NCBI RefSeq assembly: GCF_000024785.1
Contig: NC_013441.1
Span: 4,960,001-5,024,000, forward strand
Source: Gordonia bronchialis DSM 43247
Lineage (GTDB): Bacteria > Actinomycetota > Actinomycetes > Mycobacteriales > Mycobacteriaceae
Length of the DNA stretch: 64,000 nucleotides
Direction of reading: 5' to 3'
The translations under genes and the position numbers were made by a program. This document shows, in pieces, positions 10,191-62,337 of this stretch (the stretch's first letter is position 1; each line of letters starts with the position of its first letter). The notes beneath the pieces were generated by a model. The model did not search any database. It saw only the letters and a program-made list of their open reading frames with translations, and had not been told where the DNA came from.

Positions 10191-10337
10191 GACTGAGCCC
10201 CTCTCGCCATAGTTGGAAGACGGCACTCGACGCTGCTGCAAGTACTTCCCAACCCTACGTGCCCAGAGCGCCGTCATGGCTGATTCGCCGGCTTTGCTCG
10301 GGGAGTCGAGACCCCTCATTCATCGCCGCGTGACCCA

Positions 10338-10343
10338 TACACT
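10338..10343 (+). promoter_or_regulatory. Leaderless promoter -10 for the LysR-type gene
   Basis: TACACT followed by CTGTGC (6 nt) and the GTG start at 10350. There is no ribosome-binding site upstream. Confidence 0.65.
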
Positions 10344-10349
10344 CTGTGC

Positions 10350-11258: not shown

Positions 11259-11270
11259 CTGGTTGGTCGG

Positions 11271-13620: not shown

Positions 13621-13644
13621 TGTGACGCCCACGCGCGGGGCTGC

Positions 13645-14475: not shown

Positions 14476-14643
14476 GAGTTGACTCTTTCGTCGATGCGGG
14501 AGTTGCTGAGGCCACCACTATACGAGCGGCGTACTGCTACGAGATCAGGCACTGCTGCGAGATTCGGCGCTCGGCAGACATTCGCCGTCGACAATGGTCC
14601 ACTGGAGTGAGGTCGGCAAACACGATGATGACAGGGGTGTCGG

Positions 14644-15438: not shown

Positions 15439-15450
15439 CCGGCTACCCCT

Positions 15451-15650
15451 GTTCAGCGTGTGGTGACAACCCGCCCGGGGCATCCGGTGGTGAGCGTCTG
15501 CAGCACGAGCCGACCGAACTGTGCGTCACCCGGCTCCTCGGCGTGGGAGACCCCACGCACCCGCGGTACCTTGCACCAGCGGCCGGCGATACCGCCGTCG
15601 TTGGAGTCGGCGAGCAATCGGGCCAGAGGCCACCGTCCTTCGATGGTCGA
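15451..15650 (-). pseudogene. Possible gene remnant without a start codon
   Basis: In the 224-bp gap after the DUF1206 gene the minus strand is open for 66 codons with plausible composition (GGIAGRWCKVPRVRGVSH, then FGRLVLQTLTTG). It begins directly after a TAA and has no ATG or GTG. It may be the tail of a decayed gene or chance coding look in high-GC DNA. Nothing else is visible in the gap. Confidence 0.2.
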
Positions 15651-15662
15651 TTATGCGGGTGG

Positions 15663-17114: not shown

Positions 17115-17142
17115 GGTCCGACGATGGCGCGCCTGCCGCATC

Positions 17143-17163
17143 CCGTTCCATACCTCGGAACGG
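17143..17163. promoter_or_regulatory. Inverted repeat in the DJ-1/GlxA divergent promoter region
   Basis: CCGTTCC-N7-GGAACGG, a perfect 7-bp inverted repeat between the divergent starts at 17114 and 17227. A second imperfect pair (CATGT...ACATG, 17165-17188) follows. It is a candidate site for the GlxA protein. GATACT (17215-17220) lies 6 nt before the GlxA ATG and may be its leaderless -10. Confidence 0.5.
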
Positions 17164-17226
17164 TCATGTCCGAATTATTGGGAAACATGGCTGACAGACA
17201 TGCCCGGGTCGTCGGATACTGAGGTC

Positions 17227-18231
17227 ATGGACACCGCACCGCTCCTCGCCGAGCCGACGACACCTCGGCGGGTCCTAATCGTCGGCTATCCGGCCGCTGA
17301 ACTCCTCGACATCGCGTGTGTGGTATCGGCGCTGCAGATCGCGAACCATCTGCACGGCCGCGCGCTGTACCAACCGCGACTGGCCTCACCGGGCGGAAAC
17401 GCCATCCACACCGGCACCGGGTTGGTCGTGAATGCCGAGATCGCGCTCGAGCGAGTTCGCGGCCCCATCGACACCCTCGTGGTCAGCGGCGGTATCGGCT
17501 ACGTCGACGCCATGGCCGACGATCATCTCCTGGCCCACGTCGGACGCCTCGGGCGGTTGTCCCGTCGTGTCGCCTCGGTGTGCACCGGTGCCGGAATCCT
17601 CGCCGGCGCCGGACTCCTGGACAATAGGCGGGCGGCGACCCACTGGCGCCACGCCGCCTATCTGACCCGACGTTTCCCGGCCGTCACCTTTGACCCAGTG
17701 CCGATCTTCATCCGCGACGGAGACACCTACACGTCGGCCGGAGTCACCTCCGCCATCGACCTCACGCTGTCCTTCATCGAGGCCGACGCCGGTCCGGCAC
17801 TGGCTCGCGACGTCGCGCGGGACCTGGTCACCTACCTGCAGCGGCCCGGCAACCAGGCGCAGATGAGTGTGTTCACCACCGCGCCTGCACCCACCCACTC
17901 ACCGGTGCGCCACGTCATCGATCACATCACCGCCCACCTCGACGCGGATCTGTCCACCGCGATCCTCGCCCACCGGGCCGGCTTGAGCGAGCGACACCTC
18001 ACTCGAATGTTCAACGACGAGATCGGGCTCAGCCCAGGCAAATTCGTGCGACGCATCCGGGCGGAGTCGGCGGCCACCCTGCTCGTCGAAACCGACCTCA
18101 CCATCGCCGCGGTCGCCCGCCGCTGCGGTTTCGGCACCGCAGAGGCTCTGCGACAGTCGTTCATCGCCACCTATGGCGTCGCACCGTCGCGGTATCGCGC
18201 CACCCAGCAGATGCAGCGCAGTCCGGCCTGA
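17227..18231 (+). CDS. GlxA family transcriptional regulator (DJ-1/PfpI sensor plus AraC helix-turn-helix)
   Basis: A 334-residue regulator. The N-terminal DJ-1/PfpI domain (residues 15-195) has the elbow SVCTGAGILAGAGLL with a Cys at the nucleophile position. The C-terminal AraC domain has two helix-turn-helix units (STAILAHRAGLSERHLTRMF and TIAAVARRCGFGTAEALRQS). GlxA-type regulators control amino-acid, quaternary-amine or stress genes. The divergent membrane DJ-1 protein gene is the most likely target. ATG start. Confidence 0.87.
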   Translation: MDTAPLLAEPTTPRRVLIVGYPAAELLDIACVVSALQIANHLHGRALYQPRLASPGGNAIHTGTGLVVNAEIALERVRGPIDTLVVSGGIGYVDAMADDHLLAHVGRLGRLSRRVASVCTGAGILAGAGLLDNRRAATHWRHAAYLTRRFPAVTFDPVPIFIRDGDTYTSAGVTSAIDLTLSFIEADAGPALARDVARDLVTYLQRPGNQAQMSVFTTAPAPTHSPVRHVIDHITAHLDADLSTAILAHRAGLSERHLTRMFNDEIGLSPGKFVRRIRAESAATLLVETDLTIAAVARRCGFGTAEALRQSFIATYGVAPSRYRATQQMQRSPA

Positions 18232-31330: not shown

Positions 31331-31382
31331 TGAACCGCCCCGGGTTCGTCGGAGGCTCTCGAACCTGTGAAGGATGGAGAGC

Positions 31383-31700
31383 ATGGCAGCACCTCGGAAG
31401 TACAGCATTGAGCTGAAGGAGCGAGCGACGCGGATGGCGGTGGAAGCCCGCAAGGACCCGGCCACACGGCCGGGAGCGTTCAAACGGATCGGCGATCAAC
31501 TCGGTGTGCACCCGGAGGCGCTACGCACCTGGGTCAAGCAAGCCGAAATCGATGGCGGGCAGCGGCCGGGTACCACGAGCAGCGATTCCGAGCGGATCGC
31601 GCAGCTCGAGCGGGAGAACCGCGAGCTGCGGCGGGCGAACACGATCTTGAAGCAGGCGTCGGCTTTTTTTGCCGCGGAGATCGACCGCCCACAGCGTTGA
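31383..31700 (+). CDS. IS3-family OrfA (helix-turn-helix) of IS-A
   Basis: 105 residues. A helix-turn-helix (AFKRIGDQLGVHPEALRTWV) is followed by a leucine-zipper-like coiled coil (RIAQLERENRELRRANTILK). A run of seven T (31664-31670, GC-TTT-TTT-T) lies just before the end and is the expected -1 programmed frameshift site producing the OrfAB transposase. Another in-frame ATG at 31374 is possible. Confidence 0.85.
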   Translation: MAAPRKYSIELKERATRMAVEARKDPATRPGAFKRIGDQLGVHPEALRTWVKQAEIDGGQRPGTTSSDSERIAQLERENRELRRANTILKQASAFFAAEIDRPQR

Positions 31701-32665
31701 TCGTGGAGTTCGTCGCCGCTTCTCGCGACGAACACGGAGTCGATCCGATCTGCGCGGCCCTACGCGACACGGCCGCCCAGATCGCTCCGTCCACGGTACG
31801 AGCCCACCTGAGTGCGAACAAGACCGAGGCGCCACGCACGGTGCGTGACCGGGAGATGCTCGGCGAGATCCGCACCGTGCACGCCGACAATCTCGGCGTC
31901 TACGGTGCCCGCAAGGTCCACGCCGAACTACGCAGAAAGGATATCGACGTGGCGCGCTGCACTGTCGAACGATTGATGAAAGCCGATGGACTGCAAGGGA
32001 TACCGAGGTTGAAGACACGCAGGACCACCCGCAGCGATGGCGCCGAAACCCCGCAACCGGCCGACCGAGTCGGCCGGCAGTTCACCGCCGAGGCGCCGAA
32101 CACCTTGTGGGTGGCGGACCTGACCTACATCCGCACCCACTCCGGGTGGGTGTACGCGGCGTTCATCCTCGACGTGTACTCGCGCGTGGTCGTCGGCTGG
32201 CAGGTCTCGACCACGATGCACACCGACCTCGCATTGGACGCCTTAGACATGGGATTGTGGGCGCGTGATCGTGCCGGCCAGGATGTGGCCGGACTGATTC
32301 ACCACTCGGACCGCGGAGTGCAGTATCGAGCGATTCGTTACACCGAGCGTCTCGCCGAAGCTGAAGCGGTGACTTCGGTTGGCTCCAAGGGTGATTCGTA
32401 TGACAACGCGATGGCCGAGGCGTTCAACTCGTTATTCAAGGCGGAATGTATCCGCAACCCGATCATGCGCCCGAAGAGCGGGTGGGGCGGTGTCGGCGAC
32501 GTCGAGATCGCGGTCGCCGAGTACATCGAGTGGTTCAACCACCGCCGTCTGCACGGCGAGATCGGACACGTCCCGCCGGTCGAGTACGAGGCCGCCTACT
32601 GGGCGGCCCACACGGTCACCAGCTACCGTGAGAACCCGGTCCCAGCAGAGGCCGGAACCAACTAA
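31697..32665 (+). CDS. IS3-family OrfB (DDE transposase) of IS-A
   Basis: 322 residues in the -1 frame relative to OrfA, overlapping its stop by four bases. The rve/integrase core carries all three acidic residues: LWVADLTYIRTH (first D), LIHHSDRGVQY (second D) and DSYDNAMAEAFNSLFKAE (E). It ends with the typical YNxxR-like segment EWFNHRRLHGEIGH. It looks intact, so the element may be active. Confidence 0.9.
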   Translation: MIVEFVAASRDEHGVDPICAALRDTAAQIAPSTVRAHLSANKTEAPRTVRDREMLGEIRTVHADNLGVYGARKVHAELRRKDIDVARCTVERLMKADGLQGIPRLKTRRTTRSDGAETPQPADRVGRQFTAEAPNTLWVADLTYIRTHSGWVYAAFILDVYSRVVVGWQVSTTMHTDLALDALDMGLWARDRAGQDVAGLIHHSDRGVQYRAIRYTERLAEAEAVTSVGSKGDSYDNAMAEAFNSLFKAECIRNPIMRPKSGWGGVGDVEIAVAEYIEWFNHRRLHGEIGHVPPVEYEAAYWAAHTVTSYRENPVPAEAGTN

Positions 32666-33595: not shown

Positions 33596-34525
33596 TCAGG
33601 CCACCTCCGCCACGGAGGCGACGCTGTCACGATAGCGCGTCTCGTACTCGACGGGTGAGCAGTAGCCCAGGGAGGAGTGCAGCCTCTCGGCGTTGAACCA
33701 GTGCACGTAGGCGGCGGTCTCTCGTTCGACCTCGCCGCGGTCCTTCCAGGCGCGGCCGGTGTCGATCAGTTCGGTCTTGTACAAGCCGATCGCCGACTCC
33801 ATGAGCGCGTTGTCGAGCGCATCGCCGACCGATCCTATGGATCCGGTGATGTTGGCCTCGGTCAGCGCAGCGGTGAATGCCAACGATGTGTACTGACTGC
33901 CCGCATCGCTGTGATGAACCAAACCGGTTGCGGTGAAGTCGAATCCGGATCGGCGGCGGGCGAACAACGCTTGCTCGACAACACTCGTCACCAACGGTGT
34001 GTGCTTGCTCGCCATGACTCGCCACCCGAGGATGCGTCGCGAAAACACATCCACGAGGAACGCGACGTAGACAAACCCCGCCAATGTCCACACATACGTG
34101 AAGTCGGCCACCCACCACTGATCCGGATGTGTCGGTGTATCCCATTGTCGTTCAACATGATCAGGGAATCGTGGCGCCCTATCGTCTCGGTGGGTCGTGG
34201 TGGTGCGATGGCTGCCGCGTACAGCACCGGAGATGCCGCAGATCCCCATCAGCCGGCCGACCTGATCACGACCCATCACGTGACCGGCGCGCCACATCGT
34301 GTGATACATCTTGCGCACCCCGTACACACCGCGGTTCTTCTCGAACTGCTGGTAGACGGCATGAGCGGCGTAGGCCTCCTCGAGCATCGCTGCCGAGACC
34401 AGGCCACGCTGCTTGTGGGCATAGTAGGTGGATGGGGCAATCTGCATTCCGTACTCGGTGAGTACCCGGCAGATCGGATCGACCCCGAACCTGTCCCTGT
34501 GATCGTCGATGTACTCGACGATCAA
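33596..34525 (-). CDS. IS3-family OrfB (DDE transposase) of IS-B
   Basis: 309 residues with the DDE residues in WWVADFTYVWTL, LVHHSDAGSQYTSLAF and DALDNALMESAIGLYKTE. The C-terminal WFNAERLHSSLGYCSPVEYE is typical of the family. No internal stop. It ends 31 bp from the left terminal repeat. Confidence 0.9.
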   Translation of the reverse strand: MIVEYIDDHRDRFGVDPICRVLTEYGMQIAPSTYYAHKQRGLVSAAMLEEAYAAHAVYQQFEKNRGVYGVRKMYHTMWRAGHVMGRDQVGRLMGICGISGAVRGSHRTTTTHRDDRAPRFPDHVERQWDTPTHPDQWWVADFTYVWTLAGFVYVAFLVDVFSRRILGWRVMASKHTPLVTSVVEQALFARRRSGFDFTATGLVHHSDAGSQYTSLAFTAALTEANITGSIGSVGDALDNALMESAIGLYKTELIDTGRAWKDRGEVERETAAYVHWFNAERLHSSLGYCSPVEYETRYRDSVASVAEVA

Positions 34526-34848
34526 CGAAGTCGGCGGTCGATCTCCGCCGCGGCGAAAAACGCCGACGCCGTCTTCAAAATCTCATTGGCTCTGCGCAAT
34601 TCGGAATTCTCACGACGCAGCTCACGCACCTGAGCATCCAACTCCCCACTGGTCGTACTCACCCCCGAGGAGACCACCGGCGTGTCCTTCTCGATCCAGT
34701 TACGCAGCGTCGCCTGATTGATATCGAGCATCTCGGCGACATGCCGGCGCGCCGCCGACTTCGACCCGCCCACCTCGCCGAGCCGATCCTGATACATCCG
34801 CACGGCACGCTCACGCGTCTCCTGGTCAAACTTCCGTGGTGCTCCCAT
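34522..34848 (-). CDS. IS3-family OrfA of IS-B
   Basis: 108 residues with a helix-turn-helix (RRHVAEMLDINQATLRNWIE) and a coiled coil (QVRELRRENSELRRANEILK). The end overlaps OrfB; a run of five T on the coding strand (34556-34560) is the likely -1 frameshift site. ATG 34848. Confidence 0.85.
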   Translation of the reverse strand: MGAPRKFDQETRERAVRMYQDRLGEVGGSKSAARRHVAEMLDINQATLRNWIEKDTPVVSSGVSTTSGELDAQVRELRRENSELRRANEILKTASAFFAAAEIDRRLR

Positions 34849-48626: not shown

Positions 48627-48627
48627 C

Positions 48628-48689
48628 GGTATGACTCACTCATACCCTCAATTGTTTGATAAGTGAGGGCATGATGTCGCCATGCCCTC
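48628..48689. promoter_or_regulatory. Nested inverted repeats between the MFS gene and the SWIM operon
   Basis: GGTATGA-N5-TCATACC (48628-48646), then CCCTCA...TGAGGG (48645-48669) and GAGGGCAT-N9-ATGCCCTC (48665-48689). The last could terminate the MFS transcript. The first is more like an operator. The rest up to 48822 is the presumed promoter region of the five-gene operon. Confidence 0.5.
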
Positions 48690-48822
48690 GGATCCGCGTG
48701 CAACCTCACACGGTGGGGAGCGGGTCACCGGGCTACAACGGAATCGCATGTGGCACGCAGTCGAGGTGACCGAGATTTGGTGTGTCTGGCCAATGTCCGA
48801 GGCGTGTGATTGATTGGTCGCC

Positions 48823-50130
48823 ATGGGGGAGCGATGGACGGTCGACCAGGTGCTGATGCTGGCGCCCGACGCCGCGTCGGTCCGGGCCGGTCAGAAACTC
48901 GCCACCCCGACGCCGTGGACAGCCACCGGCCACCGTCTGGGCGCGGTGTGGGGTCTGTGCGCGGGCAGCGGCAGAACTCCCTACCGGACCGTCGTCGATC
49001 TCACGGCGCCCGCGTACAAATGCTCCTGCCCGTCCCGCAAGTTTCCGTGCAAGCATGCGATCGGCCTGCTCCTGCTGTGGAGTGAGGGTTCGGTCCCGGA
49101 GGCAACCGAACCACCCGACGACGCCGCGGAGTGGCTCGCCGGCCGCGCAGCGCGAACGGTCACACCCAAGGCGTCGGCACCGCCGAAGGACCCGGCGCAG
49201 GCAGCAAAAACCGCTGCTCAGCGCGCCGACCGGGTGCGCGCGGGCGTCGAGGAACTGCAGCTGTGGCTCACCGATCAGGTGGCCAACGGCCTCGCCGGCG
49301 CCGAGGCCGACGCGTACCGCCGATTCGACACCGTCGCCGCACGGCTCGTCGACGCCCAGGCGCCCGGTCTCGCGCGCCGCGTCCGGCGTCTGCCGGAGCT
49401 GATCGTGACCGGTGACGGTGCCGACTGGCCGGACCGCCTTCTGGCGGAGTTCGGGCGGCTGTGGTCGTTGACCGTCGCCCACCAGCGTCTCGATCAACTC
49501 CCGGAACCTCTGCAGCACACGGTGCGACGCCACGTCGGCTATCAGACGTCGCGCGCCGATGTCCTGGCGACACCGGGGGTCACCGACACCTGGGCGTTTG
49601 TCGGGTCGCGCACCACCGAGGAAGACCGCCTGCAGGCACGACGTACCTACGTCTTCGGCGTCGAATCCGGGCGGTTCGGCCTGATCCTCGACTACGCTCC
49701 CACCGGCGCAGTGCTGCCCACCTACCCGGTGATCGGGTCGGCGCTGCGGACCGCCATGCACTTTTATCCCGGAAACCCCGACTTGCGGTGCCTGCCCGAC
49801 GAGCAACCCGCCACCTTGGTCGAGGTGCCATCACTGCCGTTCGCGACTGTTGCCGACGCGCGGCGCCGGTTGGCCGACGCGGTCGCTACCGATCCCTGGC
49901 TGTCGGTTCACCCGGTTCTGATCGGTGGATGGCTCGCGCGGACCGCCACGGGCAGGGCTGCCCTGGTCGACGACGCGGGGGCGGCGGTCGAACTCCTCGA
50001 TGTCGACGCGCGCTGGGCGATGCTCCTCGCCCTCAGTGGTGGGCAGCGCATCGGCGTCGTCGGCGACTTCGGCGTACACGGGCTCGATCCGTTCGCCATC
50101 CAGCTCGACGGGCAGGTGGTGGGCCTGTGA
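48823..50130 (+). CDS. SWIM zinc-finger protein, first gene of the five-gene MoxR/VWA operon
   Basis: 435 residues. The SWIM motif is C67-x-C69-x6-C76-x-H78 (YKCSCPSRKFPCKHAIG), a zinc finger that binds DNA or protein. An Ala/Pro-rich linker (110-130) and a long helical and beta-rich C-terminal region of unknown fold follow (SRTTEEDRLQARRTYVFGVE; LSVHPVLIGGWLARTATG). It is the counterpart of E. coli YehQ-type SWIM proteins. The next gene starts within its stop (GTGA). ATG 48823 was preferred to a GTG at 48814. Confidence 0.82.
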   Translation: MGERWTVDQVLMLAPDAASVRAGQKLATPTPWTATGHRLGAVWGLCAGSGRTPYRTVVDLTAPAYKCSCPSRKFPCKHAIGLLLLWSEGSVPEATEPPDDAAEWLAGRAARTVTPKASAPPKDPAQAAKTAAQRADRVRAGVEELQLWLTDQVANGLAGAEADAYRRFDTVAARLVDAQAPGLARRVRRLPELIVTGDGADWPDRLLAEFGRLWSLTVAHQRLDQLPEPLQHTVRRHVGYQTSRADVLATPGVTDTWAFVGSRTTEEDRLQARRTYVFGVESGRFGLILDYAPTGAVLPTYPVIGSALRTAMHFYPGNPDLRCLPDEQPATLVEVPSLPFATVADARRRLADAVATDPWLSVHPVLIGGWLARTATGRAALVDDAGAAVELLDVDARWAMLLALSGGQRIGVVGDFGVHGLDPFAIQLDGQVVGL

Positions 50131-51593
50131 GTACCTGGGAAGAGGTGGTGTCCGCGGCGCTGGTCGGAGCACGTACCCGCGCCGTGGACGCAGAGAACCT
50201 GGATGCGGTTGTCGCCCAGCATGTCACGAGAGTTGTCGATACCGACCCGTCGATCCGGGTCCTGCAGATCGCCGCCCTCACCGCGGTGGCCACGCAGGCC
50301 AGCGGACCCGTCCCCGACCTCACGGCACAACCGCTGCCACCGGTTCCCGCCGACCCACGGCCCCTGATGTCCGAACTCGCGTCCGCGCACGTCGGCCGAG
50401 CATTCACCCTGTCACCCGCGGTAGCCAACTGGTGTGTGGACCTGTTGTCGCACAGCCGATTCCGTCCACCGATGCGGCTACTTCCGGACCTGTTGCGCCG
50501 GACCGCTCACAATGTGGCGATCCGGCCGAAGATCGAGCGGATCGCCGGACCGGCCGGGTACTGGCTGGCCGAATATGCACCGGACCTCGGAGCCGTCCTG
50601 CCGCGGGAGGAGGTGGGGACCACTACCCGAGAGGATCCCACGGTCTGGACCCACGGGGCGTTATCGGAACGGACCGCGTACCTGCGCGCCCTCCGCGGAC
50701 GTGACCCCATCGCCGGTGCCGAACTGCTCGCCGCAGGTTGGGCGTCGGAAAGCGGACCCGACCGCGAAGCCCTCCTCGACACGCTGACGCAGGGCGCGTC
50801 CGTCGCCGACGAGGATTTCCTTGAACGAGCGCTCGATGACCGACGCGGCGCGGTACGGGCCACCGCGGCGCGCATACTCGACATCATTCCCGAATCCGGT
50901 TTGCAACAACGCCTTTTCGCGGCCGCCTCGCCGCACCTCGAGATGCGTGGACGCCTGCGCAAGAAGCTACATGTCACGCTGCCGGCCGAACCCGACGACG
51001 ATCTGCGACGCGACGGCATCACCGTGAAACCACCGAGGGGGACCGGGCTGCGGGTGTGGGTCCTCGCGCAACTGCTGTCGCGCATCCCACCCAGCCGCTG
51101 GGAAGCCCAGTTGGGCGCCGACCCCACCACCATCGTCGACGCCATCGGCCCCGAGGACGGTGTCGTGGTCGAGAGTCTGTGCCGCGCAGCAGTTCTCCAC
51201 CGCGATCAGCGGTGGGCCGACGCCCTGGTCGGACATCGGGAGGCCCTCCCCGATGTTGCGCGGGCAGCGTCGACCGCCCGGCTGGTGTCTGTCTACCCCG
51301 ACCTGCCGGCGGAGAAGCTGCCGGCGTTGCTCGCGCTCATTGACGCGCCGTGGCCTGAGCCGATTGCCCGGCATACCTTTGCTGCCGTTGCCCGGTTGCT
51401 GCGCGAGAACACCTATTCCGCCCCGGCGGCCGCGCGACTTCTCGACGCGCTCGCCGTCGGCCTGCCCGCTACCGACCGGTGGCAGGAGGCCGTCGCCCAG
51501 CTGTCAGCCACCGCCGTCACCGGGCACGCCCAGCTGGCCGTGGTCAGCGAGGCCCTCCGCGTCCGATCCGTCCTCACCAAGGAGTTGCAGTGA
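50127..51593 (+). CDS. DUF5691 protein, second gene of the operon
   Basis: 488 residues, mostly helical and repeat-like, starting STWEEVVSAALVGARTRAVD, the usual opening of the family. No catalytic motif is obvious. The central HEAT-like section (SERTAYLRALRGRDPIAGAE, EDFLERALDDRRGAVRATAA) suggests a scaffold. It is always near SWIM and MoxR genes in such clusters, as far as I know. GTG start overlaps the SWIM stop and its own stop overlaps the next start. Confidence 0.75.
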   Translation: MSTWEEVVSAALVGARTRAVDAENLDAVVAQHVTRVVDTDPSIRVLQIAALTAVATQASGPVPDLTAQPLPPVPADPRPLMSELASAHVGRAFTLSPAVANWCVDLLSHSRFRPPMRLLPDLLRRTAHNVAIRPKIERIAGPAGYWLAEYAPDLGAVLPREEVGTTTREDPTVWTHGALSERTAYLRALRGRDPIAGAELLAAGWASESGPDREALLDTLTQGASVADEDFLERALDDRRGAVRATAARILDIIPESGLQQRLFAAASPHLEMRGRLRKKLHVTLPAEPDDDLRRDGITVKPPRGTGLRVWVLAQLLSRIPPSRWEAQLGADPTTIVDAIGPEDGVVVESLCRAAVLHRDQRWADALVGHREALPDVARAASTARLVSVYPDLPAEKLPALLALIDAPWPEPIARHTFAAVARLLRENTYSAPAAARLLDALAVGLPATDRWQEAVAQLSATAVTGHAQLAVVSEALRVRSVLTKELQ

Positions 51594-52690
51594 CCGAGAA
51601 CCACCAGACCGACGATCTACTGCGACCGCACGCCGAACAGCTGTATGCCGATGAGCTCGCCGCGCTGCGCGCGCAGGATCACGCCACCCGGCCGACGAAC
51701 TGGATGCTCTCTCCGTCGGCCGTCGTCACCTATCTCCTCGGCGGTGAACTCGACGACGGAACCACCATCTCGCCCAAGTACATCGGGCCGCGGCGCCTCA
51801 TGGAGGTGGCGGTCGCGACACTCGCCACCGACCGCGCACTGCTCCTGCTGGGAGTACCCGGCACGGCGAAAACGTGGGTGTCGGAGCACCTGTCCGCCGC
51901 GATCAGCGGGACGTCCACGCTGCTCGTGCAGGGCACCGCGGGCACACCGGAGGAGGCCATCCGATACGGCTGGAACTATGCCCGCCTCATCGCCGAGGGA
52001 CCGAGCCGGGAGGCGCTCGTGCCGTCGCCCATCATGACGGCCATGGAGCAGGGCAAGATAGCCCGGCTCGAGGAGCTGACCCGCATCCCGTCCGACGTTC
52101 AGGATGCGCTGATCACGGTGCTCAGCGAAAAGACCCTGCCCGTACCCGAACTCGGGATCGAGGTGCAGGCCGCCAAGGGGTTCAGCGTGATCGCGACCGC
52201 CAACGACCGGGACCGCGGCGTCAACGAGCTGTCGTCGGCGTTGCGACGGCGCTTCAACACCGTCGTCCTTCCGCTGCCGGCGACCGCCGACGAGGAGGTG
52301 GCGATCGTGACCCAACGCGTCGCGGCGCTCGGTAAAAGCCTCGAACTTCCCGACCTGCCGTCGGCCACCGAGGAGATCCGGCGCGTCGTCACCGTGTTCC
52401 GCGAAATGCGTTCCGGCGTCACCGAAGACGGACGGGCCAAGGTGAAGCAACCCAGCGGAACCCTGTCCACCGCCGAAGCGATCTCGGTGATCACGCATGG
52501 TCTGGCGATGTCGGTGCACTTCGGCGACGGGGTACTACGACCGAGTGACGTGGCAGCCGGCATCCACGGCGCCGTGATCAAGGACCCCGCCGCAGACACC
52601 GCGATCTGGACCGAATACCTCGAAGGCGTCATCCGCGAACGTGCGGACTGGGCGGACTTCTACCGCGCCGCCCGTGGCGCACTACGATGA
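51590..52690 (+). CDS. MoxR-family AAA+ ATPase, third gene of the operon
   Basis: 366 residues. Walker A is GVPGTAKT (88-95); the acidic Walker B-like segment is ARLEEL (158-163). Sensor 1 Asn is in IATANDRDRG (about 205), and the arginine-rich SSALRRRF is near 214-222. MoxR proteins remodel or activate partner complexes through VWA proteins, and one lies in this operon. The family fits E. coli YehL. GTG start with AAGGAG upstream, overlapping the DUF5691 stop (GTGA). Confidence 0.88.
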   Translation: MTENHQTDDLLRPHAEQLYADELAALRAQDHATRPTNWMLSPSAVVTYLLGGELDDGTTISPKYIGPRRLMEVAVATLATDRALLLLGVPGTAKTWVSEHLSAAISGTSTLLVQGTAGTPEEAIRYGWNYARLIAEGPSREALVPSPIMTAMEQGKIARLEELTRIPSDVQDALITVLSEKTLPVPELGIEVQAAKGFSVIATANDRDRGVNELSSALRRRFNTVVLPLPATADEEVAIVTQRVAALGKSLELPDLPSATEEIRRVVTVFREMRSGVTEDGRAKVKQPSGTLSTAEAISVITHGLAMSVHFGDGVLRPSDVAAGIHGAVIKDPAADTAIWTEYLEGVIRERADWADFYRAARGALR

Positions 52691-54954
52691 CCTCGACCGT
52701 CGAAATACCGGCACCGCAGACACTTCCAACAGGGGTCTATGTGCTCGGCATCCGCCACCACGGGCCCGGGTCGGCGCGCGGGGTCATCGCCGAACTCGAT
52801 CGCATCCGTCCCGACGCCGTGCTCATCGAAGGTCCCGCAGACGCATCCGACCTCATCGCGACGGTGGCCGACCCCGATCTGTCCCCACCCGTGGCGTTGC
52901 TCGCCTACGCCGCCGACGATCCGGGTGTCGCGGCCTTCTGGCCGTTCGCCGAGTTCTCACCGGAGTGGCAGGCGATGCGGTGGGCGGTCGCCGCGTCGGT
53001 GCCCGTCCAGTTCTGCGATCTGCCGTCGACGATGACCTTGGCGCACCGGTCAACGCCCACGCCGGCACCCGACGACCCTCCACGCGGTGACGATTCGGCA
53101 CACACCGTCCGCGGCGACCCGATTGCGCTGCTCGCAGCCGCCGCCGGATACGACGATCCGGAGCGCTGGTGGGACGACATTGTCGAAACCCGCGGCGAGG
53201 GAGCCGGATTCGAGGCGATCACCGAAGCCATGGCAGCACTGCGTGCCGACGCCCCGGATGCCGCGGGATCGTCGTCGGAGGTCGAGCACGACGCGCGCCG
53301 GGAAGCACATATGCGTCAGGTGCTCCGCAGAACCTTGAAACTCCCCGGTGTCGAGCGGGTGGTGGTGGTCTGCGGTGCCTGGCATGCGCCGGCGCTCAGT
53401 GGCAAGCTCCCGCCGGCGAGCACGGATACCGCGATCCTGCGGGGCACACCGAAGCTCCGCACCCGGCTGGCCTGGGTGCCGTGGACCCACTCGCGCCTCG
53501 CGTCGGCCTCCGGTTACGGCGCGGGCGTGATCTCGCCGGGCTGGTTTCACCATCTGTTCACCACCGAATCCGACATCATCGTCCGGTGGCTGATTCACGA
53601 GGCCATGCTGTTGCGCGCCAAGGACATCGACATCTCGTCGGCGCACATCATCGAGGCCGCCCGGCTCGCCGAAACCCTGGCCACACTGCGGCGGCGGCCG
53701 CTCGCCGGGCTCGCCGAGATCAACGAGGCGACGCTGGCAGTGATGTGTCAGGGCGATTCGGCCCTGGCCGACATGATGTACCGCGAGGCGGTCATCGGCG
53801 AACGCCTCGGCGCGGTACCCGAGGACGCACCCGTGGTGCCGTTGCAGGCCGATCTGACCGCCGCGGCGCGTTCGGCACGACTTAAGATGGTGCCGACGAT
53901 CAAAGAGATCGACGTCGACCTGCGCAAGCCGGTTGATCGTTCCAAATCGCTGGTGCTGCACCGGATGAGAGTGCTGGGGATCGAGTGGGGCACGCCACGC
54001 GAGACCGCCGGAACCGGAACCTTCAAAGAGGGCTGGACCCTGGTGTGGCGACCCGAGTTCGTCGTCGATGTCGTGATGGCTTCGGTGTGGGGCACCACGC
54101 TGCTCGCCGCGGCGAGCGCCAAGGTCATCGACCGGGCCACCGCCGGGTCGTCGTTGGCTGACGTCACCGGCGCGCTGGAGGACGCATTGCTCGCCGACCT
54201 TCGCGACGCCCTACCGCTGGTGCTGCACTTACTTGCCGACCGTGCCGCGATCGACCACGACGTGGCGGCCCTGATGTCGGCGCTGCCCGCGTTGGGGCGT
54301 GCCCGACGCTACGGGGACGTGCGCGGTACCGATGTCGGTGCGCTGGGCGACGTCGCGTCGACGCTGCTGATCCGGGTGTGCAGCGGGTTACCGTCGGCGG
54401 TCACCAATCTCAATGACGATGCCGCGGCCGATCTCACGAAACGCCTCAACGCGGTGCATGCCACGATCGCCCTGCTCACCGACAATGACCAGGCGCGCTG
54501 GATCGCGGTGCTGCACACCATCGCCGGACGCTCCGACGTCAACGGTCTACTCGTCGGACGCGCCACCCGGCTGCTGCTCGACGGAGGTGAGATCGATGGT
54601 GGCCAGGCCGCGGTCCGGCTCGGCCGCGCACTGTCCGCCGGCGCCAGCCCGACGGCGAAAGCCCAATGGATCGAGGGGTTCTTGGGTGACGGCGGGTTGT
54701 TGTTGATCCACGATCGTGACCTCCTCGCGATCCTCGACGACTGGCTGGTGGGACTCCCGGAGCGGGATTTCACCGATGTGCTGCCGTTGGTGCGCCGCAC
54801 TTTCGGAACCTTCGACGCGTCGATCCGGCGCAACATCGGCAGCCGCGTCGCCGGGCTGGATCAGCCGTCGAAACGTTCTGCCACAACCGTATTCGACGCC
54901 GAGCTGGCCGCACCGGCGGTCGCCGTCGTCGCCGGCATTTTGGGGTTGCCATGA
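52687..54954 (+). CDS. DUF5682 protein, fourth gene of the operon
   Basis: 755 residues. The first 250 carry GIRHHGPGSA (His24-His25), PDAVLIEGP (Glu48) and VVVVCGAWHAPAL (Cys229, His233). These are spaced and worded like the metal/active-site motifs of the TraB/Tiki/ChaN group. The remaining 500 residues are helical. The E. coli homologue is YehM. ATGA overlap with the ATPase gene. Enzymatic activity is not proven. The assignment to the DUF5682 family is from memory of its opening motif. Confidence 0.82.
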   Translation: MTSTVEIPAPQTLPTGVYVLGIRHHGPGSARGVIAELDRIRPDAVLIEGPADASDLIATVADPDLSPPVALLAYAADDPGVAAFWPFAEFSPEWQAMRWAVAASVPVQFCDLPSTMTLAHRSTPTPAPDDPPRGDDSAHTVRGDPIALLAAAAGYDDPERWWDDIVETRGEGAGFEAITEAMAALRADAPDAAGSSSEVEHDARREAHMRQVLRRTLKLPGVERVVVVCGAWHAPALSGKLPPASTDTAILRGTPKLRTRLAWVPWTHSRLASASGYGAGVISPGWFHHLFTTESDIIVRWLIHEAMLLRAKDIDISSAHIIEAARLAETLATLRRRPLAGLAEINEATLAVMCQGDSALADMMYREAVIGERLGAVPEDAPVVPLQADLTAAARSARLKMVPTIKEIDVDLRKPVDRSKSLVLHRMRVLGIEWGTPRETAGTGTFKEGWTLVWRPEFVVDVVMASVWGTTLLAAASAKVIDRATAGSSLADVTGALEDALLADLRDALPLVLHLLADRAAIDHDVAALMSALPALGRARRYGDVRGTDVGALGDVASTLLIRVCSGLPSAVTNLNDDAAADLTKRLNAVHATIALLTDNDQARWIAVLHTIAGRSDVNGLLVGRATRLLLDGGEIDGGQAAVRLGRALSAGASPTAKAQWIEGFLGDGGLLLIHDRDLLAILDDWLVGLPERDFTDVLPLVRRTFGTFDASIRRNIGSRVAGLDQPSKRSATTVFDAELAAPAVAVVAGILGLP

Positions 54955-56126
54955 CAGACGAGCCAGAGCGCATGCGGCGCTGGCGCCTGATTCTCGGCGA
55001 CGCGGCTGCCGAGGAGTTGCCCGCGCTCGGCGGCGACGACTTCGACATGGACGGCGCGCTCGGCGCCCTGTACAACAGCTCCGGCGACCGGCGAGGCGGG
55101 CTCGGCAAGTCGGCGCCGTCGGTGGCCAGGTGGCTCGGTGACATCCGAAAGTTTTTTCCGGCCACGGTCGTTCAGGTGATGCAGACCGACGCCATCGAGC
55201 GTCTCAATCTGCACGCGTTGCTCGCCGAGCCGGAGCTGATCGAGCACGTCGAGCCGAACATCGACATGGTCACCACGTTGATGGCGCTCGGTAGGGCGAT
55301 CCCGGAGAAGTCGAAGGCGTCGGCGCGTGCGCTGGTGCGGACCGTCGTCGACGAGGTCGAGCGGCGCATCGCCGAACGCACCCGCAGCGCAGTGGGTGCC
55401 GCGCTCGACCGGGCCGCGCGGACCACCCGCCCGCGACTGCATGACATCGACTGGAGCACCACCATCGCTCGCAACCTGCGCCACTATCTGCCCGAGCAGC
55501 GCACCATCGTGCCCGAGCGGCTCGTCGGCTACGGCCGACGGTCCCAGGTGGTCAGCAAAGACATCGTCCTGGCCATCGACCAGTCCGGTTCGATGGCCAA
55601 TTCCATTGTGTACGCGTCGATCTTCGGGTCGGTCATCGCGACGATGCGCTCGGTCCGTACTTCCTTGGTGGTCTTCGACACCGAGGTGGTGGACCTCACC
55701 GACAAGCTCGACGATCCCGTCGACGTCCTCTTCGGCACCACCCTCGGCGGCGGCACCGACATCAACCGGGCAATCGCCTACTGCCAGGAACTGATCACGC
55801 GGCCCAACGACAGCATCTTCGTCCTGATCTCGGATCTCTACGAGGGTGGCATCCGCGACGAGATGCTCAAGCGGATCATCGCCATGCGCGACAGTGGTGT
55901 CGCCGTCATCGTGCTGCTCGCGCTGTCCGACGAGGGAGCACCCGCCTTCGACCGCGAGATCGCCGGCGCTCTGGGAGCTCTCGGCGTTCCGGCCTTCGCG
56001 TGCACCCCCGACGCCTTCCCCGACCTGCTCGCCGTCGCGATCAGCCGCGGCGACATAGTGGGGTGGGCGGACGCGAACGAGCTTGCGCAGCGGGGGATGT
56101 CGGAGGATGTGCCCGACGTTCTCTGA
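54951..56126 (+). CDS. VWA-domain (CoxE-like) protein, fifth gene of the operon
   Basis: 391 residues. A helical N-terminal half of about 200 residues precedes a von Willebrand A domain with an intact MIDAS: DQSGSMANS (from Asp210), a Thr in GGGTDINRAI and the Asp in LISDLYEGG. Such proteins pair with MoxR ATPases to insert metal or remodel targets. E. coli YehP is the counterpart. It overlaps the previous stop (ATGA) and ends the operon, 63 bp before a convergent gene. Confidence 0.88.
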   Translation: MTDEPERMRRWRLILGDAAAEELPALGGDDFDMDGALGALYNSSGDRRGGLGKSAPSVARWLGDIRKFFPATVVQVMQTDAIERLNLHALLAEPELIEHVEPNIDMVTTLMALGRAIPEKSKASARALVRTVVDEVERRIAERTRSAVGAALDRAARTTRPRLHDIDWSTTIARNLRHYLPEQRTIVPERLVGYGRRSQVVSKDIVLAIDQSGSMANSIVYASIFGSVIATMRSVRTSLVVFDTEVVDLTDKLDDPVDVLFGTTLGGGTDINRAIAYCQELITRPNDSIFVLISDLYEGGIRDEMLKRIIAMRDSGVAVIVLLALSDEGAPAFDREIAGALGALGVPAFACTPDAFPDLLAVAISRGDIVGWADANELAQRGMSEDVPDVL

Positions 56127-57839: not shown

Positions 57840-58943
57840 TCAGCGTGACCCCGGGTAGGGGTGGTCGGCGTAGAAGTCGAGGTGGGCCTGTGCTGCCGAA
57901 TCCCAGGTGAGGCTGCGCGCCAATGCATCGCCGCGACGACGGCACCGGTCGTCGGGGATTCGGGCGGCGAGTATGGCGGCCGCCAACCCGGCGGGATCGT
58001 CGGCGTAGGTGACGGTGTCACCGAAGACTTCGCGCAGGATCGGCAGTTCGCGGGCCACCACGGGGCGTCCGGCCGCGAGTGCTTCCATCGCGGCGAGACC
58101 AAATCCCTCCTTGGTGGAGGGGAATGCGAAGACGTCACACCCGGCGACCAGCGACGGCAGATCGTCGTCGGCGACGGGCCCGAGCACAATGGGGTCGATG
58201 CCGAGCTCGGTGCGTCGCCGGTCGAATTCGGCGCGGTAGTCGCGATAGTCGAACAGGGTCTCCCCGCCGGCGAAGACCAGTGCCAGATCCGGTGCCTCGG
58301 CGCGCAGTAGCGCGTACGCCTCCAGCAGATCGATGCTGCCTTTGCGGGGTTCGATCCCACCGATGGCCAGGACGTAGTGGCCGAGTTCGCGGCGCCACCG
58401 TCGACGGGCTGCCATGGCAGGCTCGGTGTCGTCGGCCGCGTTCGCGAAGCGGCGATGGTCGACGCCGTTGGGGATGACCGCCGGCGACAGGTTCCAGCCG
58501 GCGGCGACCTCGTCGGCCACCCCACGGGACACACAGATACGTGCGTACGGGTTGACGACGGCCTTCTCGTGGCATTCCTGCAGGATCGGCGTGGTGAACT
58601 GATCGAGGTGATGGATGGTTCGGATACATGTGCCGACGGCGTTGGCGCTGATGCAGTCCTGGGCGTGGACGATGTCGTACTCGGTCGGATCGAAGGCAGC
58701 GCGCAGGGTGTCGATCGACCGTACGATTCGGGCGGTGATGGTCTCGTCCGGTATGTCTGCGAACGGCACAAGACGTTGGCGGACAGACGGTTCGACCACA
58801 CGGAAGAATCCCTCGTCCCCACCCCGCGCGAGACTCCAGACGGTCACCTCGGCTCCCGCGCGGGCCAGTGCTTCGGCGAGGTTGAGGGTGTGCACGACCC
58901 CACCGCGGGGCTTGGTCGAGTAGGTGAGCAACGCGATCCGCAT
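57840..58943 (-). CDS. GT4-type glycosyltransferase, MSMEG_0565 family, last gene of the Nit-type operon
   Basis: 367 residues. GT-B fold: N-terminal KPRGGVVHTLNLAEALARAG, donor-binding FAFPSTKEGFGLAAMEAL with the EX7E pattern and LAIGGIEPRKGSIDLLEAY. It belongs to the family named after MSMEG_0565, found only near the nitrilase/radical-SAM cluster, as here. Three bases separate it from the upstream CN-hydrolase gene. The sugar and acceptor are unknown. Confidence 0.85.
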   Translation of the reverse strand: MRIALLTYSTKPRGGVVHTLNLAEALARAGAEVTVWSLARGGDEGFFRVVEPSVRQRLVPFADIPDETITARIVRSIDTLRAAFDPTEYDIVHAQDCISANAVGTCIRTIHHLDQFTTPILQECHEKAVVNPYARICVSRGVADEVAAGWNLSPAVIPNGVDHRRFANAADDTEPAMAARRRWRRELGHYVLAIGGIEPRKGSIDLLEAYALLRAEAPDLALVFAGGETLFDYRDYRAEFDRRRTELGIDPIVLGPVADDDLPSLVAGCDVFAFPSTKEGFGLAAMEALAAGRPVVARELPILREVFGDTVTYADDPAGLAAAILAARIPDDRCRRRGDALARSLTWDSAAQAHLDFYADHPYPGSR

Positions 58944-58946
58944 GAA

Positions 58947-59801
58947 TCACCCTCCCCCGACCGGCTTTTGGACGATCCGGTGGTAGGTGTCCGGTCGCAG
59001 TTCGTTCAGGTGATCGAGAACCCTACGCGCCCGGTCTATGTCGGAGTCGACGTCGACGCGCGCCAGGGCGAGACCGCCCTTGGATCGGGTGGTAGCCAGG
59101 ACGTCGCCGCCGGGGCCGACGACCTTGGCCTGCCCGAGGAACCGCAGCGACCCGGTGACGCCGGTGAGGTTCGACGACACGACGAACACCTGGTTCTCGG
59201 CGGCCCGTGCGCAGTCGTAGAGGTCGAACAGACGGGACTGCCGATCGGCGGGAAGCCGTGCGGCACGGTCGGTCACGCTGGCCGGCCAGGCCGAGAGAGT
59301 CGCTATGATGCGGGCACCGTCGAGTGCCAGGGTGCGTGCGGATTCCGGGAAGGTCTTGTCGTAGTCGATGAGCATGCCGATCCGCCCGACGGGCGTGTCG
59401 AACGCCTGGAACGAGTCGCCGGCGGCATACGCCTCCGACTCCCCCGCCGGTTGGTGCACCTTGCGGTGAGTGCCGAGAATGCCGTCGCCGCACAGGCATA
59501 CCGCGGTGTTGTACCGCACTCCGGCGTCGGCTTCGGTGTAGCCGATGCACACGGTCATGGCTCCGGCGGCCGCGGCGATCGCGGCGAGTTCCGGACCGTC
59601 GGGATCGAGGGTGGGTGGCAACTCGGCGGGGTCTGGATGACGGAGGTCGCCGATGTACCCGCCGATCGAGGCATCCGGGAACACGAGGAGATCTACACCG
59701 TCGCGGGTGGCGGCTTCGACGATCCCGACGGCTTTGGCGACGCCGCGTTCCACGTCTCGTCCGAAATGCGCTGCGAGAGCGCCCAGAGTGACCGTGGTCA
59801 T
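58947..59801 (-). CDS. Carbon-nitrogen hydrolase family protein with altered catalytic triad
   Basis: 284 residues of the nitrilase superfamily. The three usual catalytic positions read: Asp43 in LLVFPDASIGGY (Glu expected), Lys114 in THRKVHQPAGE (kept) and Asp146 in IGMLIDYDKTFPE (Cys expected). The fold motifs around them are otherwise normal (FPESARTLALDG). Hydrolysis through the usual Cys thioester is therefore not possible unless chemistry differs. It stands in the place occupied by the nitrilase in Nit clusters. ATG 59801. Confidence 0.82.
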   Translation of the reverse strand: MTTVTLGALAAHFGRDVERGVAKAVGIVEAATRDGVDLLVFPDASIGGYIGDLRHPDPAELPPTLDPDGPELAAIAAAAGAMTVCIGYTEADAGVRYNTAVCLCGDGILGTHRKVHQPAGESEAYAAGDSFQAFDTPVGRIGMLIDYDKTFPESARTLALDGARIIATLSAWPASVTDRAARLPADRQSRLFDLYDCARAAENQVFVVSSNLTGVTGSLRFLGQAKVVGPGGDVLATTRSKGGLALARVDVDSDIDRARRVLDHLNELRPDTYHRIVQKPVGGG

Positions 59802-59831
59802 GTCATCGCACTCTACTCAGCGTCGGCTCGG

Positions 59832-61277
59832 TCATGCGGCTCCCAGACCCGTCACGGTGGAGCCGACCGCCACGGTGACCTCGCCGTCGGGCCAGCGCAG
59901 CCGCACGCCGGGTGACGAGGTCAGCCGTCCACACGCTCGTGCGGTGGTGGGAGCGGGAGTGTGCTCGATGGACCGACGGTCGGCCATGAGCATCGCGTAG
60001 CCGGGGAAGCAGGTCAACCACTCCCCCATGCGCGCCGCGTCCGGCCGCGGGACGGCCGCCACGTCGAGTTCGGCACCCGTTCCGGAGGCCTCGGCCAGCA
60101 TGCCGAGCGTGCCCGCGATCCCGGCCATGCTGACGTCCTTGGCGGCCGCCGGTCGCACCTCGGCCGGTAGCCGGGCCATCCGCGCCAGTTCGTCGGCGGA
60201 TCGTGCGCTGGTGCTGTCCCATTGGCGCCCTTGGTAACCCGGCCGCCACGAGCCGCCGAGGTCGGTGATGAGGGAGAGGGTGTCCCCGACGCGCCCGCCA
60301 CCGCCGGGGATCGGACGTTCGGTCTGGCCGAGTGCGGTCACCGACAGCGACGCGTGGACACCCACCTGGGTGTGCCCACCGAGCACCGGGGTGCGCCAGG
60401 CCTGTGCGGCCGCGGCGATCCCACGGACGACGCGGGTCAGGTGGGATCGAGTCGGCGCGCCGACGGCGTCGAGCAGGCCGAGTGGTCGGGCCCCCATGGC
60501 GGTCAGATCGTTGATGTTGACCAGTACCGAGCACCAGCCGGCCCATTCGGGATCCCGCTCGACCATCGCCGGGAGGATCGCGTCGCAGGCGGCGATCACG
60601 TCGGAATCGGGTACCGGTGCACCGTCGTCGCCGCGGAACCCGTTGCCGCCCAGTCCTCCTGATTGCGACCACAGCGGCGAGAGAATCTCGGCCAGCATCG
60701 CTTTGGTGGAGTCCGCCGCCCGCTGGATCGTTCCGATGGGCCATTGCATCCGACGATGATCACGGCCCCGGATCGTCGGACCATCACCGCGGTCGAGCCA
60801 GCCGAGGGACCGGAACATCGGTGCGTAGCGGTCCTGGACGGTCGCGTCGAAGCGTAGGACGCCGTGGGTTTCGGCGTACGCGCACGCGGCCCGTACCAGG
60901 GCGGCTCCGATCCCGGCGGCGTGTGCCGGGTCGGCGACGACGAGCCTGCTGCCCGACCACCAGCCGATGTCGTCGGTGGTGCCCGGGGCGAGCCGCACAC
61001 CGCCGATCACCTCACCATCGGGAGTCGCGGCGACAAGGACGACGGTCCGTGGGTCGTCGTCGGTGTCGTCGTGGTCGCTGTGATCGAAGAGTTGTTGGCG
61101 CTCGACGAATTCCACGTGCCGCAGCGCGCGATAGGCGTCGGACGATTGTCGGTCGTCGGCCACTCGAATCAGGAATGGGTGTGGTGGCGAACAGGTTCGG
61201 ACGCCGGCGAGGATGGACAGATCGGTCTTCGGCCCGTCGATCCTTCGGGCGGGCGTGGTGGCGTTGCCGTCGAGCAT
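59832..61277 (-). CDS. GNAT acetyltransferase - AIR synthase-like fusion, MSMEG_0567 family
   Basis: 481 residues. The N-terminal GNAT-like part (residues 20-180) includes VIGGVRLAPG and HAAGIGAALVRAACAYAE (acetyl-CoA loop). The C-terminal AIR synthase/PurM-like part (200-480) includes GAPVPDSDVIAACDAI, LVNINDLTAMGARPLGLLDA and GHTQVGVHASLSVTALGQ, typical of ATP-using PurM enzymes. In cyanobacteria these are separate genes (sll0786 and sll0787 types). ATG 61277 lies 4 bp after the radical SAM stop. Substrates unknown. Confidence 0.85.
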   Translation of the reverse strand: MLDGNATTPARRIDGPKTDLSILAGVRTCSPPHPFLIRVADDRQSSDAYRALRHVEFVERQQLFDHSDHDDTDDDPRTVVLVAATPDGEVIGGVRLAPGTTDDIGWWSGSRLVVADPAHAAGIGAALVRAACAYAETHGVLRFDATVQDRYAPMFRSLGWLDRGDGPTIRGRDHRRMQWPIGTIQRAADSTKAMLAEILSPLWSQSGGLGGNGFRGDDGAPVPDSDVIAACDAILPAMVERDPEWAGWCSVLVNINDLTAMGARPLGLLDAVGAPTRSHLTRVVRGIAAAAQAWRTPVLGGHTQVGVHASLSVTALGQTERPIPGGGGRVGDTLSLITDLGGSWRPGYQGRQWDSTSARSADELARMARLPAEVRPAAAKDVSMAGIAGTLGMLAEASGTGAELDVAAVPRPDAARMGEWLTCFPGYAMLMADRRSIEHTPAPTTARACGRLTSSPGVRLRWPDGEVTVAVGSTVTGLGAA

Positions 61278-61281
61278 CGGC

Positions 61282-62337
61282 TCAGCCTCCCACGTTCGGC
61301 AGGACGCTGCAGGCCCCGCACGCAGCACAGCCCGCACGTTGATCCGAGCCGGTCATGCCGATGAGTTGCAGATGGGCGGCAACTTCTCGGCTGACCTTCT
61401 CGACGTCGGCCGGTGCCGGCGCACGTGCGTGATCGACATCGACGGCCAGCGTGCCGGCGTGCGGGCGGAACGGAACGATGAACGGATAGACGCCCATGTC
61501 CGCGAGTTCCTTTGCGCCCGCGATCATGTCGTCGATGTTCTCGCCGAGCCCGACGAGCAGGTAGGTCGATACCTGATTGCGGCCGAAGACGCGGACCGCC
61601 TCGGCCCACGCTGCGCGGTACTCGTCGAGTGACACCGACGACTTGCCCGGCATCCAGTGGCGACGCACATTGTCGTCGAGTGATTCGACGTGGATGCCGA
61701 TGGCATCGGCGCCGGCCTCGCGCAGATCCGTGATCGTGGAGAGGTCAGCAGGTGGCTCACATTGGACCTGGATCGGCAGATCCGGTACGGCCGCCTTGAC
61801 CGCGCGGACACATCGGGCGAGATGCTTTGCCCCACGATCCTTTCCGGCCGAGGTTCCGGTGGTCATCACCATCTGGGTGACGCCGTCGAGGTCGACGGCG
61901 GCGCGTGCCACCGCGGCGAGATCGGCGGGCTTCTTCACCGCGACCGTGGAGCCGCTGCGCAGCGATTCCTCGATGGAGCAGAAGCGGCAGCGCTGATCCT
62001 CCGAGTACCGGATGCAGGTCTGCACCACCGTTGTCGCGAGCACATTGGCGCCGTGCAGCCGAGCGATCTTCTCGAAAGGAGTTCCGTCGTCGGTGGTGAG
62101 GTCGTAGAAGCGCGGGCGGCCGATGGATTCCACCTGCACCCCGGTGTCGACGCCGTCATAGAGGACGCGGTCACCGTCGAACTCGAAGGGACTGAGCGGG
62201 TTTCGCGGAATCGCAGCATTGAGCCCGTCGATCAGCAGGTGGCCGTCGTCGGTGGGGCCCGCCCCGCCGGTGCGGTTCACCGGTGGCGTTCCGCGGATGC
62301 CGAGGAGGGCAAGATCGACTCGGGTGGACACGGTCAC
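61282..62337 (-). CDS. Radical SAM protein, MSMEG_0568 family
   Basis: 351 residues. The cluster-binding segment is C108-x8-C117-x2-C120 (TCIRYSEDQRCRFCSIEES), with wider spacing than the usual CX3CX2C. The SAM region MVMTTGTSAGKDRG and the later QVSTYLLVGLGENI follow. The end has CAACGAC, likely for a second cluster. GTG start overlaps the stop of the flavoprotein gene (GTGA). Reaction unknown; in the cyanobacterial cluster it is sll0785-type. Confidence 0.85.
   Translation of the reverse strand: MTVSTRVDLALLGIRGTPPVNRTGGAGPTDDGHLLIDGLNAAIPRNPLSPFEFDGDRVLYDGVDTGVQVESIGRPRFYDLTTDDGTPFEKIARLHGANVLATTVVQTCIRYSEDQRCRFCSIEESLRSGSTVAVKKPADLAAVARAAVDLDGVTQMVMTTGTSAGKDRGAKHLARCVRAVKAAVPDLPIQVQCEPPADLSTITDLREAGADAIGIHVESLDDNVRRHWMPGKSSVSLDEYRAAWAEAVRVFGRNQVSTYLLVGLGENIDDMIAGAKELADMGVYPFIVPFRPHAGTLAVDVDHARAPAPADVEKVSREVAAHLQLIGMTGSDQRAGCAACGACSVLPNVGG

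Follow-up and report, generated by a model that had tools for sequence, protein, structure and literature searches.

A conserved five-gene operon of Gordonia bronchialis, predicted to encode an AAA+ machine with a TIKI-superfamily subunit

Do the five genes at positions 48823-56126 of a 64,000-nucleotide stretch of Gordonia bronchialis DSM 43247 (NC_013441.1, 4,960,001 to 5,024,000; the whole stretch is hereafter the window) encode one machine, and on what would that machine act? The genes lie on the + strand as an operon and encode, in this order, a SWIM zinc-finger protein, a DUF5691 protein, a MoxR-type AAA+ ATPase, a DUF5682 protein and a VWA protein. We propose that they specify one multi-subunit AAA+ machine, in which MoxR and the VWA protein act on, or together with, a hydrolase of TIKI fold. 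We estimate the probability of this reading at about 0.5.

Linkage, fusions and subtypes of the operon

The five genes are consecutive and overlap by 4 nt at every junction (GTGA, GTGA, ATGA and ATGA), as an earlier note on this DNA had reported and as the coordinates of the open reading frames confirm. They encode the SWIM protein (48823..50130, 435 residues, motif at residues 59-84; Pfam E-value 4e-6), the DUF5691 protein (50127..51593, 488 residues; 6e-111), the YehL-like MoxR ATPase (51590..52690, 366 residues; AAA_5, 6.6e-39), DUF5682 as the third core subunit (52687..54954, 755 residues; 6.9e-267) and the CoxE-like VWA protein (54951..56126, 391 residues; VWA_CoxE, 9.3e-50). The closest named DUF5682 proteins are from Gordonia (69-73% identity).

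Linkage was assessed in 80 loci, the most similar among 586 relatives confirmed in species genomes; all 80 are actinobacterial by title. Profiles detected all five genes in 77 of them; the remaining three, without SWIM, are on contigs of at most 8.5 kb which end before the SWIM position. In-frame 4-nt overlaps were found at the four junctions in 50/75, 63/77, 49/80 and 46/79 cases, respectively. Further, we used an even sample of the phylum (296 genomes). DUF5682 was present above the cut-off in 25 genomes. DUF5691 was matched in 27 at E <= 0.001; five of these matches were weak and were discarded, and the 22 genomes with a score over the cut-off all fall within the 25 (hypergeometric probability 2.5e-30, uncorrected for kinship). 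The two genes were separated by 1.2-3.3 kb in all 22. They shared a strand in 11 of these genomes and were on opposite strands in the other 11, which belong to one genus; in a member of that genus (L083) SWIM and DUF5691 diverge from MoxR-DUF5682-VWA. Therefore co-transcription of all five genes is not obligatory, and the single transcript assumed in the earlier note describes the usual arrangement, with that genus as the exception for DUF5691.

DUF5682 was also detected on 36 of 72556 plasmid records, and five of these, selected for spread, were opened. Four of them, from Rhizobium, Methylosinus, Methylobacterium and Deinococcus, carry the five genes in the order of the window; the Hymenobacter plasmid keeps this order with SWIM fused to DUF5691. 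An extra small gene precedes DUF5682 on the Deinococcus and Hymenobacter plasmids. On the Methylosinus plasmid pOB3b3 (L155) three separate frames share the VWA gene (10160-11385), the same stretch carries recombinase and toxin-antitoxin genes, and the system looks decayed.

Fusions join neighbouring members of the set. SWIM is fused to DUF5691 in 12 of the 80 loci (one of them partial), and DUF5682 to VWA in three further loci. The count excludes a DUF5691-MoxR frame in L023, where the genes look frameshifted, and fusions seen in single records (P0034, P0122, P0124, P0126, P0131 and P0134). By several tests the five genes are one conserved system; the linkage holds in loci from four phyla, as the single-system idea of the earlier note had predicted.

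The constant core of all subtypes is MoxR-DUF5682-VWA. Type A, found in the window, adds SWIM and DUF5691. Type B, to which Escherichia coli belongs, has DUF4132 in place of DUF5691. In the 296 genomes, each of the 10 DUF5682 copies with a middle score (320-718 bits) had DUF4132 at a distance of 1.4-7.1 kb. Around the 23 high-scoring DUF5682 places no DUF4132 was found on the contig to a distance of 15 kb (some contigs being short). It therefore seems that DUF5691 and DUF4132 stand in for each other as partners of the core. The two did not prove to be related: hhalign probabilities for DUF5691 against DUF4132 (five proteins on the DUF4132 side) or against the DUF5682 repeat were 0.1-0.2%, which leaves either kinship unsupported. 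All 7 type B loci that were looked at, namely E. coli and six of those ten, have a CxC...CxH pattern; the Pfam SWIM score was above the cut-off for E. coli YehQ and below it for the two others scanned. DUF4132 carries a WGR domain in one scanned type B locus (L095). Type C comprises four low-scoring DUF5682 copies of the 296 genomes, of which two were fetched (L086 and L088). Both are arranged as VWA-MoxR-DUF5682, and the SWIM pattern was detected in neither. The DUF5682 match in L088 is weak, yet RExxM and GxxH are retained.

In E. coli the order is yehI(DUF4132)-yehK-yehL-yehM-yehP-yehQ. The names that the earlier note had given for the E. coli counterparts were correct, since profiles identify MoxR, DUF5682 and VWA there and Pfam identifies the SWIM domain of YehQ. 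YehL defines one of seven MoxR subfamilies (PMC3893208). We place the MoxR of the window in that subfamily through its match to the YehL profile and the shared neighbours, not by a tree. Sequence comparison thus shows a core of MoxR, DUF5682 and VWA accompanied by a SWIM protein and by DUF5691 or DUF4132.

DUF5682 and its partner proteins

The N-terminal part of DUF5682 (residues 10-292, 52714..53562), folded alone, gave a predicted structure for which the top 16 rows of the structural ranking were all members of the TIKI superfamily. This superfamily includes TraB/PrgY/GumN, ChaN, erythromycin esterase and Tiki, and it is marked by a pair of GxxH-type histidine motifs, a catalytic Glu that follows the first of these histidines and a basic residue close to the active site. 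Two such motifs are present in DUF5682, namely G21-x-x-H24 (52747..52758) and G230-x-x-H233 (53374..53385), comparable to G38SIH41 and G249ALH252 of YbaP. In an alignment of 70 sequences (23-74% identity) G21, H24 and H233 are invariant (70/70) and G230 is kept in at least 90%. Equally invariant are E48 (52828..52830), which lies in the second strand (residues 44-50), and R205, E206 and M209 of R205-E-x-x-M209 (53299..53313), a motif that parallels RDxxM of erythromycin esterases. E48 follows the first histidine by 24 residues (28 in Ere L110, 26 in YbaP), and R205 precedes H233 by 28 residues, while in Ere L110 R265 of RDxxM precedes H298 by 33, a comparison of sequence position only. YbaP is without R[DNE]xxM. 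All four motifs were kept, by pattern, in 99 of 107 matching open frames.

Sequence comparison did not confirm this assignment. The TraB_PrgY_gumN profile (PF01963) did not match, and Pfam at E <= 1 returned DUF5682 only. Profile-profile comparison (hhalign) of DUF5682 with YbaP-type proteins gave a probability of 0.8%; the Ere-TraB control was low as well, but over a much longer alignment. A forced global alignment gave no result for a TIKI relation, and there was no credible match of DUF5682 among PDB sequences, where the best hit of one search was to designed armadillo repeats (E 0.0019, with no stretch passing alone). The TIKI-superfamily claim rests on the predicted structure and the motifs. 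From these, the N-terminal domain is predicted to have a TIKI-superfamily, hydrolase-like fold, with a likely active site made up of the two GxxH histidines, the glutamate and the arginine. We did not assign DUF5682 to the 2His/2Glu subset of the erythromycin esterase/RRSP type, because the extra Glu 2-3 residues before the first His is absent (G21-I-R-H24). What the earlier note had called simply a DUF5682 effector can thus be sharpened to a predicted TIKI-superfamily, hydrolase-like protein. The C-terminal part is a helical-repeat region (residues 424-727, 53956..54867).

The residues expected of the partner proteins, including those listed in the earlier note, were present. The SWIM ligands C67/C69/C76/H78 are kept as Cys/His in 76 of 77 aligned sequences with letters at the motif. 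The metal ion-dependent adhesion site (MIDAS) of the VWA protein, D210-x-S-x-S ... D295, is intact (D210/S212/S214/D295), with Asp/Ser/Ser/Asp in 80/80 aligned relatives. No effector domain was found by Pfam in the VWA protein of the window, in which the VWA_CoxE match stops at residue 356 of 391. MoxR has the Walker A lysine K94 (kept in 80/81, with one gap), N205 and the arginines R220/R221. The usual Walker B motif ends in Asp-Glu; here E161-E162 occupy this position, and Glu-Glu was found in 81/81 aligned sequences. The nearest solved chains, distantly related, are midasin and NorQ. An adjacent VWA gene is a feature of the MoxR family and is present here. DUF5691 had no credible match in the PDB sequence search.

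Proposed mechanism and alternatives

VWA proteins are the partners of MoxR ATPases. In the NorQ-NorD pair the VWA protein inserts a finger into the pore of the hexamer, and a twisting of the linker of this finger is attributed to ATP turnover (PMC13036017). In our reading, the VWA protein of the operon would dock on a MoxR hexamer and couple its ATP-driven movements to DUF5682; we suggest this last step because VWA and DUF5682 are fused in some relatives. The DUF5682 hydrolase would then be switched on, or fed a remodelled substrate, probably a protein, while SWIM-DUF5691 (or SWIM with DUF4132, once WGR-DUF4132) would select the target. Cutting, a peptide or ester substrate and nucleic-acid binding are all inference. 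The earlier note had the ATPase and the VWA protein acting on DUF5682, and this gains indirect support from the constant triad and the DUF5682-VWA fusions. The same note took SWIM for a possible sensor of nucleic acid and DUF5691 for a scaffold; both roles are putative, and DUF5691 gives way to DUF4132 in type B. A tentative hint of a link to DNA damage comes from Deinococcus radiodurans, where genes with DUF4132 and WGR domains, which may or may not lie near DUF5682, are up on depletion of the repressor DdrO (PMC8533742).

A more specific version of this mechanism is speculative and in our judgement rather doubtful. It makes the system a new ATP-dependent protein-cutting machine, in which a VWA adaptor on the MoxR hexamer gates or feeds a TIKI-fold peptidase, and SWIM modules (in part of the other subtype also WGR) aim it at nucleic-acid-bound protein. 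If real, such a machine would have no kinship with Clp, Lon, FtsH, HslUV or the proteasome, and nearly all E. coli would possess its core.

The operon could instead encode a chaperone for metal or cofactor insertion, like NorQ-NorD or CoxD-CoxE, with a ChaN-like DUF5682 that binds metal or haem or is itself the client and cuts nothing. We consider this unlikely, as the invariant Glu and Arg beside the histidine pair look catalytic, and, of the 25 Pfam families listed, those of MFS and acyl-CoA dehydrogenase are the only ones to which more than two of the 122 neighbour proteins (15 loci) belong. In D. radiodurans, moreover, molybdate genes stay unchanged while the DUF4132/WGR genes rise (PMC8533742). 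Improbable, in turn, is a DUF5682 of TIKI fold without catalytic activity, whose role would be that of a scaffold joining MoxR/VWA to the SWIM module. The missing Glu of the 2His/2Glu set and the long helical repeat would suit a scaffold; the invariance of H24, E48, R205 and H233 across sequences of 23-74% identity, and the retention of all four motifs by most matching frames, speak for a working site.

We give a still lower estimate to a conflict or defence system, that is, a toxic hydrolase held by the ATPase and freed on infection or stress. MoxR-vWA ternary conflict systems exist (PMC7159879), and the MoxR of the operon matches the bpMoxR family of such systems, below the cut-off (23.1 vs 27 bits). 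DUF5682 is distributed patchily (14/37 genomes of the genus, 25/296 of the phylum) and occurs on plasmids as given above. BrxL models match two neighbour proteins, and BrxL and PglZ, genes of the BREX system, were confirmed near the operon of Tsukamurella spumae (L007), about 1 kb downstream on the opposite strand (13401-18087). In the PADLOC search (2023 database), however, the best E-value for the five proteins was 0.0023. At E <= 1e-10, 73 PADLOC families were obtained from the 122 neighbour proteins (15 of the 80 loci) and 61 from 122 of the 196 predicted proteins of 15 arbitrarily placed stretches. This is no clear enrichment, and not proof of absence, because only 25 families are shown, many of them generic kinases. 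Gene calls for this comparison came from a crude script based on G+C, and proteins longer than 900 residues and operon-side proteins overlapping the core frames were discarded. The Pfam families listed for the neighbours of the 15 loci were mostly ordinary.

The E. coli counterpart argues in the same direction. Of 5426 E. coli genomes, 5284 have a yehM match, which in 5166 covers at least 80% of the length, and 5289 of 5291 places were chromosomal. In a genome-reduced strain a deletion took out the yeh locus and the genes around it (PMC10652928), and yehL-yehM are missing from two Shigella sonnei lineages (PMC12795559); therefore the genes are dispensable there. The VWA protein of the window lacks a visible effector domain, and the phage collection gave a single match, to an unverified 'Bacteriophage sp.' gut scaffold (L158, MT835988). 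That scaffold, possibly a bacterial fragment, carries the MoxR-DUF5682-VWA triad, whereas SWIM and DUF5691 gave no match on it. The leaning of the earlier note towards conflict systems finds no support in the poor PADLOC hits, the neighbours or the near-core status in E. coli, and we rate a defence role as low.

Surroundings of the operon and relation to known systems

The gene upstream of SWIM encodes a major facilitator superfamily (MFS) transporter and ends at 48626. The gap between the two genes contains a GC-rich stem-loop (48664..48690, + strand), a strong hairpin without a T run, which is a possible end of the MFS transcript; a z value of -2.3 applies to the entire 48627-48740 and not to the hairpin alone. 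The promoter and terminator scan of the region gave no signal exceeding chance. Base composition gave no signal of horizontal transfer, and G+C was even over 40-64 kb of the window. Elsewhere, two IS3-like transposase pairs (HTH_Tnp_1 and rve integrase core), separated by about 0.9 kb, are oppositely oriented (31374-32662, +; 33599-34848, -). A cluster at 57843-61337 (-) encodes a glycosyltransferase and a carbon-nitrogen hydrolase (nitrilase), both by Pfam, with a long reading frame downstream, and may resemble the Nit1C nitrilase cluster.

SWIM proteins reportedly adjoin AAA and VWA genes according to the paper that defined the domain, and the E. coli genes, the Pfam families and the YehL subfamily of MoxR (PMC3893208) were already known. 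New, as far as could be searched, are the TIKI-superfamily reading, subtypes A, B and C with their DUF5691/DUF4132 alternatives, and the fusion pattern; none of them is stated in the literature searched, with most subscription papers outside the search. The same literature neither names DUF5682 or DUF5691 nor gives a function for the YehL-type MoxR system, which is near-core in E. coli and occurs in other phyla. If DUF5682 is a TIKI-superfamily hydrolase, this AAA+ machine becomes directly testable, since it would offer four residues for mutation in a predicted active site and a genetically tractable host; a MoxR-VWA pair would then be coupled to a hydrolase rather than to metal insertion.

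In the MoxR-vWA ternary conflict systems, VMAP and iSTAND among them, a single operon supplies MoxR, VWA and a third protein (PMC7159879), as it does here. The present operon differs in that the third protein is DUF5682, with no VMAP family among the Pfam matches, in the order (MoxR-third-VWA against VMAP-MoxR-vWA), and in the VWA C-terminus of the window protein, which is without a variable effector domain. SWIM, YehL, YehM, DUF5682 and DUF4132 are not named in the searched part of that paper (PMC7159879). A CRISPR survey, searched by term, refers to vWA-MoxR-VMAP and has SWIM in the legend to a figure; DUF5682 was not among the terms found there (PMC10910872).

With NorQ-NorD and CoxD-CoxE the system has in common a MoxR-type ATPase and a VWA partner with a MIDAS. 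Unlike them, it has a constant third, hydrolase-like subunit and usually a SWIM module, and no cofactor enzyme is prominent among its neighbour families (top 25 listed). DUF5682 resembles the TIKI superfamily in predicted fold and in the order GxxH, Glu, R[DE]xxM, GxxH; it departs from it in lacking convincing profile similarity and a Glu directly ahead of the first His, in its long helical-repeat tail and in its constant pairing with MoxR-VWA. The E. coli locus is the core of the same machine: yehL-yehM-yehP-yehQ encode MoxR, DUF5682 and VWA in identical order together with a SWIM protein. There, however, the SWIM gene comes last and carries two motifs, yehI (DUF4132) lies upstream with no DUF5691 match, and DUF5682 is about 25% identical to the protein of the window.

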